Source: Teichococcus coralli | Lineage (GTDB): Bacteria > Pseudomonadota > Alphaproteobacteria > Acetobacterales > Acetobacteraceae | Length of the DNA stretch: 64,000 nt | Assembly: GCF_009829925.1 (NCBI RefSeq) | Contig: NZ_SNVJ01000004.1 | Coordinates: 1-64,000 of the forward strand | Reading direction: 5' to 3' | Shown here: one piece after another, positions 3,566-53,100 of the stretch | Layout of the letters: each line of letters starts with the position of its first letter | Numbering within the stretch: position 1 is the first letter of the stretch | Translations under genes and position numbers: made by a program | Notes under the pieces: generated by a model | Database searches by the model: none | The model's input: the letters and a program-made list of their open reading frames with translations, nothing else | Told to the model about the DNA's origin: nothing

Positions 3566-4243
3566 ATGGGCCACAAAGTCAATCCGATCGGGCTGCGGCT
3601 CGGCATCAACCGCACCTGGGACTCCCGCTGGTTCGCCGGCGACGACTATGCCCGGCTGCTGCATGATGACATCAAGCTCCGCAAGACCCTGAAGGATCGC
3701 CTGAAGGGCGCCGGCGTCTCGAAGGTGATCATCGAGCGCCCGGCGAAGAAGCCGCGCGTGACGATCCATGCCGCCCGCCCGGGCGTCGTGATCGGCAAGA
3801 AGGGTGCCGACATCGAGGTGCTGCGCAAGGACCTGGCGAAGCTCGCCGGGGCCGAGGTGGCGCTGAACATCGTCGAGATCCGCAAGCCGGAGATCGAGGC
3901 GCAGCTGGTGGCCGAGAGCATCGCCCAGCAGCTGGAGCGCCGCGTTGCCTTCCGCCGCGCGATGAAGCGCGCGGTGCAGTCCGCCATGCGCCTTGGCGCC
4001 GGCGGCATCCGGATCAATTGCGGCGGCCGCCTCGGCGGCGCCGAGATCGCCCGGATGGAGTGGTATCGCGAGGGGCGGGTGCCGCTGCACACGCTGCGCG
4101 CCGATATCGACTACGGCACGGCGACCGCGAAGACGACCTATGGCACCTGCGGTGTGAAGGTCTGGATCTTCAAGGGCGAGATTTTGGCGCACGATCCGCT
4201 GGCGCAGGACAAGCGCGCCGCGGAGCAGGCGCCGCAGCGCTGA
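3566..4243 (+). CDS. rpsC: 30S ribosomal protein S3
   Basis: S3 lies at the mRNA entry tunnel and has helicase-associated function. The 225-residue product starts [14 protein letters not shown]. It carries the type II KH domain with the GxxG-like loop [17 protein letters not shown] (about residues 67-83) and the C-terminal domain with [27 protein letters not shown] features. The start at 3566 is two bases after the rplV stop; the longer upstream frame is inside rplV. Confidence 0.97.
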
Positions 4244-34739: not shown

Positions 34740-35768
34740 TCAGGCCGCGGCCAGCGCTTCCACCGCGCGCAGATCGGCCGCGGCCACCGCCACGCCCTCG
34801 CGCCGGCTGCGGGCATAGGTGGCCATCTCGCGGTCGCCCGGCGCCATCACCGGCGCGGACGGGTCGGCCGGCGGCGTGCCGCGCAGGATGCCGCCGAAAT
34901 CCGCCATGCGCTCCTGCAGCCAGTCCTGCGCCTGCATCCGCTTGGTGTCGATCAGGATGAAGACGTGCCCGAGGTTCTGCGCCACGCCCGGGTTCTTGTC
35001 CCAGGCCTGCACATGGGTCAGGTAGGCGGCGCCGGAGAGCAGGCCCGCCAGCAGGTCGATCATCACCGCCAGCCCGTAGCCCTTGTGGCCGCCGACCGGC
35101 AGCAGGAAGCCCTTCAGCGCCTTCACCGGGTCGGTGGTCGGCTGGCCCCCGGCGTCGGTCGCCCAGCCCTCCGGCATCGGCGCGCCCTGCTCGGCCAGCT
35201 TGCGGATCTTGGCGCGCGCCGCGACGCTCAGCGCCATGTCCAGGATGATCGGGTCGCCGCCCGGATTGGGCATGCCGATGCCCATGGGGTTGTTGCCGAC
35301 CCGCGTGTCCTTGCCGCCCCATGGCGCGATGGTGGTGGTGGCGTTGCTGGCGATGAAGGAGGCGAAGCCCTCCCGCGCCGCCAGCCAGGCATAGGGCAGC
35401 ACCGGGCCGAAATGGTTGCTGCCGCGGGCGAAGGCGGCGCCGATGCCGACCTCCCGCGCCGACTCCGTCGCTGCCCGCAGCGCCCGCATGCCGACCAGCG
35501 TGCCGACGCCGTTCCGCCCGTCCACCATGCTGAGGCCGGGCGCCACGCGGCTGACCGCCACCTCGGCGCCCGCGTCGATGCCGCCCAGCCTCACCCGCTC
35601 CAGGTACTGCGCGACGCGGCTGATGCCGTGGGTGCGCAGGCCGAACATGTCGGCCAGCACCAGCACCCGCGCCGCCTCGGCCGCCGCATCCTCGGGCATG
35701 CCGCCGCGCGCCAGCGCGCGGGTGGCGAGGGCGAGGAGCTCGGCCTCGGGAATCTTGGTCTCGGTCAT
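34740..35768 (-). CDS. Malate/L-lactate dehydrogenase family (LDH2) oxidoreductase
   Basis: Type-2 family members are NAD(P)-dependent dehydrogenases of malate, lactate, ureidoglycolate, sulfolactate or delta-1-piperideine-2-carboxylate. The 342-residue protein has ADMFGLRTHGISRVAQYLERV with the catalytic histidine near residue 48, RGSNHFGPVLPYAWLAAREG, and WGGKDTRVGNNPMGIGMPNP. The GGHKGYGLAVMIDLLAGLLSGA segment lies at about residues 226-247. It is the last gene of a three-gene minus-strand set with a metallo-beta-lactamase-fold protein and a Bug receptor, so the substrate is probably a small hydroxy- or keto-acid. Confidence 0.9.
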   Translation of the reverse strand: MTETKIPEAELLALATRALARGGMPEDAAAEAARVLVLADMFGLRTHGISRVAQYLERVRLGGIDAGAEVAVSRVAPGLSMVDGRNGVGTLVGMRALRAATESAREVGIGAAFARGSNHFGPVLPYAWLAAREGFASFIASNATTTIAPWGGKDTRVGNNPMGIGMPNPGGDPIILDMALSVAARAKIRKLAEQGAPMPEGWATDAGGQPTTDPVKALKGFLLPVGGHKGYGLAVMIDLLAGLLSGAAYLTHVQAWDKNPGVAQNLGHVFILIDTKRMQAQDWLQERMADFGGILRGTPPADPSAPVMAPGDREMATYARSRREGVAVAAADLRAVEALAAA

Positions 35769-35774
35769 GGGGCC

Positions 35775-36533
35775 TCAGTCGCAGCGGAGTTCGAAGCGGG
35801 TGGTGTGCTCGATGTCCTCGCCGAACCAGGCGGCGATGGCGGCATCGCGGGTGCCGACATAGTCGGCGCGCCCGTTCTCATCGAGGCGCAGGGTCAGGTC
35901 GTGGCCGGGGATCACCAGCGTGCCCGGCACCTGGCGCCACAGCTCCCAGATGGCGGCGATGGAGCGGGCGGTCGCCGCCTCGTCCTCGCTCATGTCGGCC
36001 CGGCCGCAGAGCAGCTCGGCACGGTTCTTGGCGGCGTCGCCGGTGAAGATCACCGGCGTCTCATTGGCCGTCAGGTGGAAGACCAGGCAGCCGGGCGTGT
36101 GGCCGGGCGCCAGCATGGCATGCAGCCCGGGCAGGAACTCCTCGCCGTCCCTGATGCGGCGCACCTCCGGGTTCTGGTTCAGCGCGGCGACGTAGAGCTC
36201 GGGCAGCGGGTCGAAGCCCGGCGGCTGCGCGGCGGCCCAGCGCAGCTCCTCCTCGCCGATCCAGACCGTGGCGCGCGGGAACAGCGTGAAGTTCACGGCA
36301 TGGTCGTAGTGCGCGTGGGTCAGCACCACATCGGTGATGTCCTCCGGCTTCACGCCCCGGGCGGCGAGCTGCCGCGCCAGCGGCTTGCGCACGCCGAAGG
36401 CGCCGACATCAATGAGAATGCAGCGGCCCTCGCCGCGCAGCAGGGCGATGGTGCTCCAGCCCAGCCCGCCATGGCAGACGGCCTTGCCGGGAAAACCCTG
36501 CACCAGAACGTCGATGCGATACATTCGGCTCAA
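35775..36533 (-). CDS. Metallo-beta-lactamase-fold hydrolase (AHL-lactonase-like)
   Basis: The 252-residue protein has the zinc motif THAHYDHAVN (HxHxDH, near residue 73), a downstream histidine in APGHTPGCLVFHL, the bridging aspartate in IFTGDAAKNRAE and the last histidine in IPGHDLTL. The arrangement resembles N-acyl-homoserine lactonases and related lactone hydrolases. It lies between LDH2 and Bug-receptor genes, with a four-base overlap with the latter. A lactone or ester in the same catabolic route is as likely a substrate as a quorum-sensing signal. Confidence 0.88.
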   Translation of the reverse strand: MSRMYRIDVLVQGFPGKAVCHGGLGWSTIALLRGEGRCILIDVGAFGVRKPLARQLAARGVKPEDITDVVLTHAHYDHAVNFTLFPRATVWIGEEELRWAAAQPPGFDPLPELYVAALNQNPEVRRIRDGEEFLPGLHAMLAPGHTPGCLVFHLTANETPVIFTGDAAKNRAELLCGRADMSEDEAATARSIAAIWELWRQVPGTLVIPGHDLTLRLDENGRADYVGTRDAAIAAWFGEDIEHTTRFELRCD

Positions 36534-37519
36534 CCCTCGACGGTGATGTTGGCGTCCTCGATGATCTTCGCGAACTTGGTCGCGTCCTCCTCGACGAAGC
36601 GGCGGAAGGCGGCGGGGTCGAGGCGGCGCGGGATGATGCCCTGTTCCATCAGCTTGCGCTGCAGCGCTTCGTCCTGCAGGGCGGCGTCGGCGGCGCCGGC
36701 GAGCTTGTCCATCACCGGCGCCGGCAGCCCGGCGGGGGCGAAGAGGCCGAACCAGTTGATCAGCTCGTAGCCCTGCATCCCCGGCGCGCTGCCCAGCGGG
36801 GCGACGTCCGGCAGCTGCGGCATCGGCTTGCCCGAGGTGACGGCGACGGCGCGCAGCTTGCCGTCCTGGATCAGCGGCAGGGCGGCGCCGAGGCTGCTGA
36901 AGCTCATCGTCACCCGTCCGGCGGCCACGTCCGTCACCGCGGGCGCGGAGCCGCGATAGGGCACGTGCAGCACGTCGGTGCCGGCCATGTGGTTCATCAG
37001 CTCGCCCGCCAGGTGCTGCGGGTTGCCGATGCCGGAGGAGGAGAAGGAAAGCTTGCCCTTGTTCGCCCGGGCATAGGCGATCAGCTCGGCCGGGTTGCGC
37101 ACGGGCAGGCTGGCCGGCACGACGACAAGGCAGGGCACGGTGCCGCAGAGCGCGACCGGCGCCAGCTCCTTCGCCGGGTCGTAGGTCATGCGCTCCTTGT
37201 AGAGCGCCGGGTTGACCGCCACCTCGCCGGCCGCCGCGAAGAGCAGGGTGTAGCCGTCCGCCGCCGCCTTCGCGACCGCCTGGGCGGCGATCATGGCGCT
37301 GGCGCCGGGGCGGTTGTCCACGATCACCGGCTGGCCCAGCCGCTTTTCCATCGGCGCGCCGACCAGGCGGGCCACGATGTCCACGCCGCCGCCGGGCGGA
37401 TAGCCGACCAGCGCATGGACCGGGCGGTCCGGGAAGGCCGGTTGCGCCCGCGCCGGGCGAAGGCCGGCGGCCAGCAGGGCGGAGCCGGTGGAGACGGCGA
37501 AATGGCGTCGGGTGAGCAT
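36530..37519 (-). CDS. Tripartite tricarboxylate transporter substrate-binding protein (Bug/TctC family)
   Basis: Periplasmic receptor of 329 residues. A leader with RRHFAVSTGSALLAAGLRPARAQ precedes the mature sequence (FPDRPVHALVGYPPGGGVDIVARLVGAPM), the family pattern at the ligand site. VIVDNRPGASAMIAAQAVAKA and HVPYRGSAPAVTDVAAGRVTM follow. No TctA/TctB genes are adjacent; the pair at 55369-57406 is a candidate partner. It is divergent from a GntR regulator across a palindromic operator. Confidence 0.92.
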   Translation of the reverse strand: MLTRRHFAVSTGSALLAAGLRPARAQPAFPDRPVHALVGYPPGGGVDIVARLVGAPMEKRLGQPVIVDNRPGASAMIAAQAVAKAAADGYTLLFAAAGEVAVNPALYKERMTYDPAKELAPVALCGTVPCLVVVPASLPVRNPAELIAYARANKGKLSFSSSGIGNPQHLAGELMNHMAGTDVLHVPYRGSAPAVTDVAAGRVTMSFSSLGAALPLIQDGKLRAVAVTSGKPMPQLPDVAPLGSAPGMQGYELINWFGLFAPAGLPAPVMDKLAGAADAALQDEALQRKLMEQGIIPRRLDPAAFRRFVEEDATKFAKIIEDANITVEG

Positions 37520-37588
37520 GGGCGGGTCTTCCTTGGTCCGACGGGCAGGGTGCGGTCCGCTGCTCCGGGGTTCATTTCAGGGGAATGA

Positions 37589-37624
37589 ATTGCATAATGA
37601 GCATTGTAAATGCAATTATGCAAT
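37589..37624. promoter_or_regulatory. Palindromic operator between Bug-receptor and GntR genes
   Basis: ATTGCATAAT (37589-37598) and ATTATGCAAT (37615-37624) form a perfect 10-bp inverted repeat with a 16-base spacer. Within the spacer is a second dyad, GCAT-TGTAA-ATGC (37601-37613). The AT-rich block is striking against the local GC content and lies between divergent genes, as expected for a GntR-family operator. Confidence 0.65.
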
Positions 37625-37666
37625 CACGGCTTCGCAAGCCCGCGCAATCTGGCAAGATCGGTGGAG

Positions 37667-38608
37667 ATGGAATCAGAGCGCATGCCCAAGGCGGACCCGC
37701 GCGCCTCGGCCGGCGTGGCGGCGGAACTGGCGACCGCCATCGCGGGTGAGATCGGCGCCGGAATGATGCCGCCAGGGACGCATCTTCCCGCCCAGCTGTT
37801 GGCCGACCGCTTCGGCGTCTCGCGCTTCCCGGTGAACCAGGCGCTGCGCCTGCTGGCCGAGCAGGGGGTGGTGACGGCCGAGCCGCGGCGCGGCTTCTTC
37901 GTCGCCGAGCAGGGGCGACACACCGCCGAGGCGCTGGCCGGGCGCGGCGCACGGGACCCGCTCTCGCGCATCTACTTCGCCATGGCCGAGGACCGCGTGG
38001 CCGGCCGGCTGCCGGATTCGATCTCCGAGGCGGCGCTGCGCGAGCGCTACGGGCTGAGCAAGGGCCAGCTCGCGCAACTGCTCGACCGCATCGCCGCGGA
38101 GGGTTGGGCGGAGCGGCGGCCGGGCTATGGCTGGCGCTTCTCCTCCGTGCTGACCACGCCGGACGCGCTGGAGCAGACCTACCGCCTGCGCCTCGCCATC
38201 GAGCCGGCGGCGCTGCTGGAGCCGGGCTACCGGCTCAGCCCGGAACTGGCCGCCCAGTGCCGGGCGGTGGAGGAGCACATGCTGGCCGGCGGCATCGAGG
38301 CCGCCTCGGCTGACGCCCTCTACGAGCGGGGGGTGCGCTACCACGAGGCCATCATCGGCGCCTCGGGCAACCCTTTCATGCTGGACACGCTGCGGCGGGT
38401 GAACCGGATCCGGCGGCTGCTGGTCTATCGCTCCCTGACCGACCGGCAGCGCTTCCACCGCCAGGCGCGCGAGCACCTCGCCATCCTCGATCTCCTGGAG
38501 GCCGGGCGGAACGCCGATGCGGCGGAGGCGCTGCGGGCGCATCTGCGCACCGTGGTCGCCAGCCTGCGCGGCATGCGTGGCCTGCTGGAAGCCCGGCCCG
38601 GCCACTAG
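37667..38608 (+). CDS. GntR family regulator with two winged-helix segments and FCD domain
   Basis: The 313-residue protein has a first GntR winged helix (LPAQLLADRFGVSRFPVNQALRLLAEQGVV, about residues 38-68). A second winged-helix-like segment follows (ALRERYGLSKGQLAQLLDRIAAEGWAERRPGYGWRF, about residues 123-158). The helical FCD ligand domain covers the remainder (LEQTYRLRLAIEPAALL onward). Most GntR/FCD proteins have only one winged helix. ATGs at 37667 or 37682 are possible starts; an ATG at 37610 lies inside the operator. Its TAG stop lies inside a palindromic repeat. Confidence 0.88.
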   Translation: MESERMPKADPRASAGVAAELATAIAGEIGAGMMPPGTHLPAQLLADRFGVSRFPVNQALRLLAEQGVVTAEPRRGFFVAEQGRHTAEALAGRGARDPLSRIYFAMAEDRVAGRLPDSISEAALRERYGLSKGQLAQLLDRIAAEGWAERRPGYGWRFSSVLTTPDALEQTYRLRLAIEPAALLEPGYRLSPELAAQCRAVEEHMLAGGIEAASADALYERGVRYHEAIIGASGNPFMLDTLRRVNRIRRLLVYRSLTDRQRFHRQAREHLAILDLLEAGRNADAAEALRAHLRTVVASLRGMRGLLEARPGH

Positions 38609-38712
38609 AGCATTTCCCGTTCGCCCTGGTTCACGGGAAATGCTCTAGCGGTTTGTTTTGACGAGCATCTTCACCCGTTCCGATGATGCCATCGGAACGG
38701 GATCTGCTCTAG
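38605..38712. repeat. Composite palindromic intergenic repeat
   Basis: The 108-base element is bounded by CTAGAGCA and TGCTCTAG. It contains a perfect 16-bp inverted repeat (38605-38620 / 38633-38648) and a 12-bp inverted repeat (38674-38685 / 38690-38701, loop ATGC), separated by a T-rich segment. The first arm includes the stop codon of the GntR gene. Such AGAGCATTTCCCG elements resemble dispersed palindromic repeats of alphaproteobacteria; it may also act as a bidirectional terminator. Confidence 0.7.
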
Positions 38713-38737
38713 GAGGCGAGGCCCGGCGGTGCCGGCC

Positions 38738-39514
38738 TTAGCGAGCCACCAGGCTGTCGTGGAGCCAGCCCCAGGGCGCCGCATCGCCGACCTGCAGCCA
38801 TCCGCCCGGCGCCTCGGCGAAGACGCGCAGCGTGGTGCCCTGCTCGACCACCCGCAGCACCGTGCCGCCACCATTGGGATGGGCGCGCAGGTTGCCGTTC
38901 TGGCGCAGCGTGACGCGGCGGCCGCCGGGTGCCGGGGCGGGGGGTGCCGTCCCACGCGCCGCCCCGGGCGCCGGCGCAGGCACCGTTTGCGGGCGGAGGG
39001 GCGGGGTGGGCGGTGGCGTGGTTGGCGGTGGCGCGGCCTGGGGAATGCGATCCGGCACCGGCGGCATCAGCGGCGGCGCGCCGGGGCGTTGTCCGGGCTG
39101 CGGACCGCCTCCGGTGTAGCAGCGGTTCACCATCTCGACGAAGACGCGCGAGGCGGTGGTGCTCGACGTGGCGACATGCTGCTCGACGGCCGGGCGGCCT
39201 TCGCCTTCCGGCGTGACCACGGCGACAAACAAGGTGAAGAGGCTTTCGCCCCCGCCCGGCTGGAGGTTCACCTGGCCGCAGACGGCGCTGCTCTGCCCGA
39301 CCGCCTGCCGGTAGACCTGCACGCCGCGCAGCGCGACAGGGCCGCCGGCGGTGGACCGCAGCGCCTCTTCCGCCGCGCGGCGCGCAGGGGCGGCCGTGGG
39401 AGCCTCGGGCGTGTCCTTCGCCGGCGGATCGTCGCAGGCGGCCAGCGCGGCGAGCAGCGCCAGCCCCGCCCCGACTCGCCGGATCCGGCCTTCCGCCCGC
39501 GGCGTCCGACTCAC
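38738..39514 (-). CDS. SH3b-domain lipoprotein
   Basis: The 258-residue protein has a lipoprotein signal with lipobox LAALAAC (cysteine about residue 27) and aspartates at +2 and +3. A middle domain follows, with two cysteines (SAVCGQVNLQPGG, VNRCYTG). A proline-rich linker occupies about residues 135-190. The end is an SH3-like domain of bacterial type (RQNGNLRAHPNGGGTVLRVVEQGTTLRVF then GGWLQVG and WGWLHDSLV). It probably sits in the periplasm attached to the inner or outer membrane and binds cell-wall or protein ligands. Its exact role is unknown. Confidence 0.8.
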   Translation of the reverse strand: MSRTPRAEGRIRRVGAGLALLAALAACDDPPAKDTPEAPTAAPARRAAEEALRSTAGGPVALRGVQVYRQAVGQSSAVCGQVNLQPGGGESLFTLFVAVVTPEGEGRPAVEQHVATSSTTASRVFVEMVNRCYTGGGPQPGQRPGAPPLMPPVPDRIPQAAPPPTTPPPTPPLRPQTVPAPAPGAARGTAPPAPAPGGRRVTLRQNGNLRAHPNGGGTVLRVVEQGTTLRVFAEAPGGWLQVGDAAPWGWLHDSLVAR

Positions 39515-52335: not shown

Positions 52336-53031
52336 TCAGTAGGCCTCGCGGATACGCTCCAGCCCGAGGTCGTGATGGCGCCCGATCACCTCCGCCAGGG
52401 CTTCGCCGTCCCGCCGCGCCATGGCGGCGGCCATCTCCTCATGCTCCGCCATGGCGGCGGCCCACTTGTTGGCGCCCTCATGGCCGATGAAGCGGATGCG
52501 CTTCATCTGGGCCTGCAGGATCTCGTGCATCCGCAGCAGGGTCGGGTTGTCGGCCAGGGTGACGATGGCGGAATGGATGGCCTGGTTGACCTTGAAGTAG
52601 GGCAGGCGGTCGCCCGCCGCGTAGCGCTCGCGCAACTGGTCGTGCAGCGCCAGCACATGGGCGATTTCCGCGTCGGTGGCGACGGCGCAGGCGCGCCGGC
52701 CGGCGAGTTGCTCCAGCGCCTTCAGCACCTCCATGCTGTCGGCGATGTCCTTCAGGGAGAAGCGGCGGACCACGGCACCGCGGGTGGGCACCAGCTCCAC
52801 AAGGCCCTCGCCGGCCAGGGTCTTCAGCGCCTCGCGCAGCGGCGTGCGGGAAACGCCCAGCGCGGCGCCGAGCGCCACCTCGTTGATGCGCTGCCCGGGC
52901 GCCAGATGGCCTTCCGTCACCATGTCGCGCAGCCGTGTCACCACCTGCCCGTGCAGGCTCTGGCGGGGAATGGCGAAGTCCTCCAGGGGCGCGGCGCCGG
53001 CCTGAGGTTCGGTCGAGGCGATGCTGGTCAT
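52336..53031 (-). CDS. GntR family regulator, FCD (FadR-C) type
   Basis: The 231-residue protein has a GntR winged helix (LHGQVVTRLRDMVTEGHLAPGQRINEVALGAALGVSRTPLREALKTL, about residues 26-73). The all-helical FCD domain follows, with metal-ligand-type histidines (ALHDQLRERY, NQAIHSAIV, MAEHEEMAAA). The start at 53031 is preferred to an upstream in-frame ATG in the operator region. It lies between the SAF-dehydrogenase and pdxA-like genes, both of which carry the same operator word. An acidic intermediate is the likely effector. Confidence 0.92.
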   Translation of the reverse strand: MTSIASTEPQAGAAPLEDFAIPRQSLHGQVVTRLRDMVTEGHLAPGQRINEVALGAALGVSRTPLREALKTLAGEGLVELVPTRGAVVRRFSLKDIADSMEVLKALEQLAGRRACAVATDAEIAHVLALHDQLRERYAAGDRLPYFKVNQAIHSAIVTLADNPTLLRMHEILQAQMKRIRFIGHEGANKWAAAMAEHEEMAAAMARRDGEALAEVIGRHHDLGLERIREAY

Positions 53032-53100
53032 GGCACCCTGTCTTGTGATCACCGGAAGTATATGGCCCCTTTGGGGGGTGGCTGCGAAGCCTCTTGCGGA

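Follow-up and report, generated by a model that had tools for sequence, protein, structure and literature searches.

We identified, in a 64,000-nucleotide stretch of DNA (the window), a GntR regulator that carries two winged helices (WH1 and WH2) ahead of its FCD domain in a single chain, together with a conserved intergenic sequence that is predicted to serve as a wide operator. According to structural models, WH2-FCD is by itself an ordinary, complete wHTH-FCD regulator, and WH1 is an extra head fused ahead of it. The combination of tandem layout and wide operator is well supported in silico. The features of the locus are collected in Table 1.

Table 1 Features of the regulator locus, with positions in the window.
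Feature	Position	Strand	Basis
Tandem winged-helix GntR/FCD regulator, 313 aa	37667..38608	+	Start set at ATG 37667
WH1, extra N-terminal winged helix (modelled), residues 15-82	37709..37912	+	AlphaFold2; Pfam GntR; VIA-align
WH2, second winged helix, adjoining FCD as usual (modelled), residues 98-160	37958..38146	+	AlphaFold2; hhalign
FCD effector/dimerisation domain, residues 165-308	38159..38590	+	Pfam FCD
Predicted operator, ATTGCAT-N14-ATGCAAT	37589..37616	.	Ortholog conservation; genome uniqueness; family matrix
Left half-site, ATTGCAT	37589..37595	+	Ortholog comparison
Right half-site, ATGCAAT on the + strand	37610..37616	-	Ortholog comparison
Outer dyad right arm, ATTATGCAAT	37615..37624	.	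Window-specific; orthologs without conservation
TctC tripartite tricarboxylate transporter receptor, divergent	36530..37519	-	Pfam PF03401 1.8e-66
MBL-fold hydrolase, divergent gene run	35775..36533	-	Pfam PF00753
Ldh_2 malate/L-lactate dehydrogenase family protein, divergent gene run	34740..35768	-	Pfam PF02615 8.6e-107

Domain architecture of the tandem-head regulator

The open reading frame of the regulator matched Pfam GntR in two stretches as well as FCD, with GntR and FCD both over the cut-off; WH2 alone scored 23.9 bits against Pfam GntR (E 3.2e-5), which is under the curated cut-off of 27. When profiles were compared with hhalign, WH2 matched WH1 with 98.1% probability (E 8.8e-13), and neither WH1 nor WH2 reached 1% against FCD. 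The AlphaFold2 model, built with a 34-row alignment (pLDDT 84), shows the elements of two winged helices, WH1 (H11-30, H42-49, H53-65, E69-72, E76-79) and WH2 (H98-111, H121-128, H132-145, E148-151, E155-158), followed by an all-helical FCD domain of ~145 residues. Both winged helices recur in the AlphaFold2 model of a distant family member that shares 30% identity with the window protein (model pLDDT 91). The two helix-turn-helix-type segments that the earlier note had placed before the FCD domain are thus borne out by Pfam, AlphaFold2 and hhalign, and the possibility that the second segment belongs to the FCD fold can be set aside, given its winged-helix form in both models, its profile match to WH1 and its structure alignment.

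Residues 94-307 (WH2 and FCD) align, over nearly the full length of the matched proteins, to single-head regulators of the FCD (FadR/VanR) subfamily, namely Lar (6ep3), PmiR (7xp0), TM0439 (3sxy) and Atu1419/VanR (6za3), with Z scores of 16 to 19 (6ep3_B, Z 19.1 over 209 residues; 7xp0, Z 18.1; 3sxy_A, Z 17.6). Pfam and this alignment both place the protein in the subfamily, with its GntR-type winged helix next to an FCD made of helices only. Residues within 4-96 align to BusR and to short GntR-type heads (Z 10.1 to 12.7). Since the C-terminal part resembles a complete single-head regulator and the N-terminal part an isolated head of the BusR or short GntR type, we assign WH1, on these models, as the added head. 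The usual layout of the subfamily, one winged helix per chain, is departed from in both models by the extra winged helix in front. Foldseek against the PDB returned 48 matches at E <= 0.001, and among the tables examined no row spanned both heads in a well-fitting alignment; the chains recognised in these and the structure-alignment tables are single-head GntR proteins.

A longer open reading frame of the regulator begins at 37610, inside the predicted operator. This start is unlikely and 37667 was taken instead; an automatic gene caller could misplace the start there and hide the operator.

Distribution and conservation of the tandem family

The search for other proteins with the same layout, which the earlier note had proposed, was productive. 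The tandem layout was present in 34/34 first-aligned proteins and is the mark of a proteobacterial family, of which 163 proteins were aligned. This set omits L003 (single head), L017 (internal stop) and L031 (partial); L001, L032, L040, L043 and L064 duplicate other loci. With the protein as query (E <= 1e-30), 22/200 genomes of the same family had a match. With the alignment profile (E <= 1e-40), matches were found in 21/387 genomes of the class, 24/397 of the phylum, 57/247 of one other family of the class and 5/245 of one order outside the class, and the listed profile matches cover positions 2-5 to 275-280 of 282, bar one starting at 14. A further 145 plasmid records had a match, including Agrobacterium, Sinorhizobium, Pantoea and Burkholderiales, and the annotated plasmid rows seen were named GntR family or FCD proteins. 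No description of a tandem-head FCD regulator was found in the literature searched (open-licence PMC texts, most judged by listing alone). In the searches run, therefore, the tandem-head branch of GntR/FCD regulators is widespread yet undescribed.

Among 12 orthologs, mean pairwise identity was 78% for WH2, 75% for FCD, 65% for WH1 and 31% for the linker, which indicates that selection maintains WH2. The position equivalent to FadR Arg45 holds Arg in 163/163 WH1 domains, and in WH2 it holds Arg in 137 and Lys in 15 of the 163 proteins. In the FCD domain, His226, His270 and His292 are kept in 163, 160 and 160 of 163 proteins, respectively. Three His of the FCD form a metal/ligand pocket as described in PMC7674646, and by conservation the window regulator appears to retain these metal-type residues of the subfamily; the Asp of the DgoR site reported there matches Gly222 of the window regulator by position.

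A wide operator conserved among orthologs

Between the divergent genes, the earlier note had described a 10-bp inverted repeat with a 16-base spacer that itself contains a GCAT/ATGC dyad, and had suggested that two heads per monomer could read the nested dyads at once. The inverted repeat is exact (ATTGCATAAT / ATTATGCAAT at 37589-37624), and the chance of at least one such dyad (gap 0-30) was 0.2% with a 147-bp intergenic model and 0.8% with a 71-bp AT-rich model (1000 first-order Markov sequences). The inner GCAT (37601-37604) and ATGC (37610-37613) are present too, but as a dyad they are weak, with arms of 4 bp and a centre half a base off the outer centre. Orthologs do not keep the nested pairing: outside the window, none has the inner GCAT in register, and the right arm of the outer dyad is not conserved. 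The nested dyad was thus rejected as the operator, and the simultaneous reading of both dyads is not supported. Judged by eye, the -10 region of the regulator's promoter may fall partly within the outer right arm; a consensus promoter scan of 37480-37720 found no promoter. An RNA element was set aside, 37400-38800 giving no Rfam match at the gathering threshold.

What the orthologs preserve joins the left arm of the outer dyad to the right arm of the inner one. TGCAT-N14-ATGCA is exact in 12/12 orthologs (the window, L004, L033-L039, L005, L006 and L041), at -43 to -219 from the matched start. In the window, this gives a 28-bp palindrome with a poorly conserved centre and half-site centres 21 bp apart (TTG-N20-CAA). 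The exact sequence TTGCAT-N14-ATGCAA occurs once in the 5,021,249-bp genome. Among plasmid relatives, TGCAY-N14-RTGCA was found in 7/8 of those fetched, the exception being L213; neither L042 nor L213 has an exact site in the fetched stretch. In three annotated Burkholderiales loci (L209, L210 and L211), where the regulator is located behind acnA, the site shifts to the acnA promoter, in the interval that separates acnA from a lactonase gene and ahead of the acnA-regulator gene pair. That the site has moved to a different promoter speaks for an operator and against a passenger sequence.

On an Agrobacterium pusense plasmid (L214), the three best matches to the family matrix described below, at 3635, 4926 and 6111, are all gap-8 and intergenic around the regulator, a possible multi-operator regulon.

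Half-site spacing is a predicted property of the tandem family

For motif learning we used the upstream regions of 54 non-ortholog loci, the 12 orthologs being held out; 21 near-duplicate loci had been dropped beforehand by judgement, and L017 (internal stop) was retained among the 54. Palindrome expectation-maximisation (EM) was started from 60 random seeds and six 7-mers typed by hand, two of which were motif-like, and the joint matrix was seeded with the resulting motif. EM recovered one motif, in register at arm gaps of 8, 10, 12 and 14, whereas nothing comparable emerged when the procedure was applied to the upstream regions of 30 single-head FCD genes from the genome that contains the window. 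The family form is ATTGTATTTT-N8-AAAATACAAT, in which the G and the inner T run are strongest and the central 8 bp are nearly uninformative. With the matrix trained without orthologs, the window operator scored 14.8, the 99% point of the null being 10.3, although one shuffle reached 16.3; 20/54 training loci were below the 99% null.

Gap 8 was the best spacing in 12/12 held-out orthologs and in 41/77 later-fetched tandem loci (next best gap, 4/77; another best gap in 36/77), as against 1/30 FCD genes with a single head in the same genome. Since relatives of training loci are among the 77 later loci, clusters without training members were counted apart: 10/22 of these had gap 8 in at least half of their members. 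Among the first members of 67 clusters (55% identity), gap 8 was best in 26 and the next best gap in 6; in 40/67 clusters, gap 8 was found in under half of the members. Because the single-head control had been scored with a tandem-trained matrix, an independent comparison of ATTG/CAAT spacing was added. Single-head FCD genes of the same genome had ATTG-N3-5-CAAT in 6/30 and N20 in 0/30, whereas [AT]TTG-N20-CAA[AT] was present in 10/67 tandem cluster firsts (expected 0.8). The tandem family therefore appears to have the same type of half-site set ~16 bp further apart, and by comparative genomics the wide spacing is shown to be a property of the family.

An internal control is provided by a single-head FCD gene of the window, at 52375-53100 on the minus strand, which shares with five relatives a contiguous upstream palindrome, CTGTAT(A/G)CAG. 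The FadR-subfamily consensus is given in PMC4494728 as GTM-N0-1-KAC, with a half-site distance that varies weakly. The TTG-N20-CAA predicted for the window regulator departs from this usual contiguous operator, to which exceptions are known. The earlier note's expectation of a geometry unlike that of normal GntR/FCD dimers is thus supported in the form of widely spaced predicted half-sites.

TTG-N12-CAA and TTG-N13-CAA were also enriched, in 6 and 5 of 67 cluster firsts (expected 0.8 and 0.6). TTG-N21-CAA was enriched too, in 5 of 67 (expected 0.6 to 0.8 across N12, N13 and N21). Sub-families with other spacings are possible. The same genome also encodes a second tandem-head regulator (L002; contig C1, 390058-390900; 36% identity), with a gap-8 site ~111 bp upstream of its matched start that scored 24.0, this locus being in the training set.

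Proposed arrangement of the heads on the operator

The best explanation, which is probable but unproven, is that the protein acts as a four-head ruler and represses until a carboxylic acid binds the FCD. An FCD dimer would set both WH2 heads near the centre of the dyad and WH1 would reach outwards, so that the dimer would line up four heads in the order WH1-WH2-WH2'-WH1' along a single 28-bp operator. Reading of the outer half-sites would fall to the two WH1 heads; these half-sites (TTGCAT in the window, TTGTAT in most of the family) are 21 bp apart, which would put them two helical turns from each other and on the same side of the double helix. The two WH2 heads would hold the centre, which is T/A-rich and unconserved, with little specificity for bases, and the fixed chain length would act as the ruler. 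We infer the dimer, its four-head occupancy, the assignment of heads to sites, the repression and the ligand; that both heads of a chain touch the same operator is plausible.

The assignment of WH1 to the outside and WH2 to the inside is favoured by co-variation together with the canonical place of WH2 beside the FCD. Across 43 cluster representatives, the base after TTG (TTG[T/C]) co-varies with WH1 residues 57 and 42, the latter near the FadR Glu34 position in a by-eye reading of the alignment. For residue 57, p was 2.6e-4, a post hoc value in which the two half-sites of one site are not independent. The same base shows co-variation with residue 122 of WH2 and with several columns of the FCD as well, so the signal is only suggestive as a pointer to WH1 reading the half-sites. 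PMC4494728 reports that FadR contacts a G through Arg45 of its recognition helix. Speaking against the four-head reading, no conserved G was found near the motif centre for the WH2 Arg/Lys to read.

In a different arrangement, WH2 would stay off the DNA as a folded spacer between FCD and WH1, leaving the wide operator to be read by the two WH1 heads only. The near absence of information in the central 8 bp and the sub-threshold Pfam score of WH2 alone fit such a role, but a mere spacer would need neither the recognition-helix Arg/Lys kept in 152/163 proteins, a conservation that could still be structural, nor a WH2 conserved as well as the FCD, and we consider it unlikely. Exchanging the roles, with the outer half-sites read by WH2 and an accessory WH1 contacting flanks, a second site or another protein, seems improbable to us. 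Although the canonical position of WH2 relative to the FCD and the co-variation of its residue 122 with the half-site point that way, base 5 of the half-site shows co-variation with residue 57 of WH1, and canonical FCD heads, as described for Atu1419 (PMC7797058), bind contiguous 10-bp palindromes rather than half-sites 21 bp apart.

The spacing might also arise from two dimers side by side or from overlapping promoter elements instead of the reach of one protein. Tetrameric FCD regulators are described in PMC7797058, and promoter-like hexamers can be seen by eye around the sites, with no match in the consensus scan. Three points make this very improbable: N14 is exact in 12/12 orthologs despite the varied distance of their sites from the start, the site is found at acnA promoters in other loci, and the spacing is common to distant tandem relatives and not to single-head FCD genes.

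The four-in-line arrangement has a likely parallel in BusR, a structurally solved case for which PMC8517857 describes four wHTHs on one bipartite operator, the outer pair specific and the inner pair sequence-independent and apparently limited to backbone contacts. The same account presents BusR as a 'molecular ruler' with a fixed 22-bp motif separation, tested by +5 and -10 bp changes. By analogy, the window regulator would share with BusR four winged helices and widely separated motifs, and the BusR head aligns with WH1 and its following helix (Z 12.7). The two differ in that BusR chains each carry a single head and an RCK_C sensor and tetramerise through a coiled coil, whereas the window regulator has two heads per chain and an FCD, Pfam giving no RCK. 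Members of the YtrA subfamily have one head per chain, and in place of their short two-helix C-terminal domain (~50 residues) the window regulator has an FCD of ~145 residues. A conserved GT/AC far from the palindrome centre is a likeness to YtrA, which is described with a short C-terminal domain (PMC4494728); unlike the window regulator, YtrA has no FCD.

We lean, with modest confidence, towards a new structural class in which a head added before a complete regulator yields a four-in-line ruler dimer, BusR's solution reached by domain addition in a broad proteobacterial family; the inner heads would clamp the centre, and a ligand of the FCD could move them and so control the outer heads. If this is true, many proteins named 'GntR family regulator' have operators that would escape searches tuned to short contiguous GntR palindromes, and nature offers a ruler-type repressor usable in engineering. 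A predicted operator is now available for many members, and the family is a natural test of how an added DNA-binding domain resets operator spacing.

Gene neighbourhood and probable ligand

The predicted operator lies between the regulator and the divergent run of TctC, MBL hydrolase and Ldh_2 genes. The TctC receptor gene is a likely target. Roseomonas haemaphysalidis has the same gene set, followed by acnA, and the three Burkholderiales relatives adjoin acnA and a lactonase gene. Most likely, repression by the regulator would act in both directions and be lifted when the FCD binds a carboxylic acid, and the ligand is likely to be a tri- or dicarboxylic acid.

Directly 3' of the regulator gene, at 38605-38712, lies a ~108-bp dispersed repeat with two hairpins. 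It has 46 matches in its own genome, a few of which are the opposite strand of the same place, and is REP/BIME- or MITE-like.
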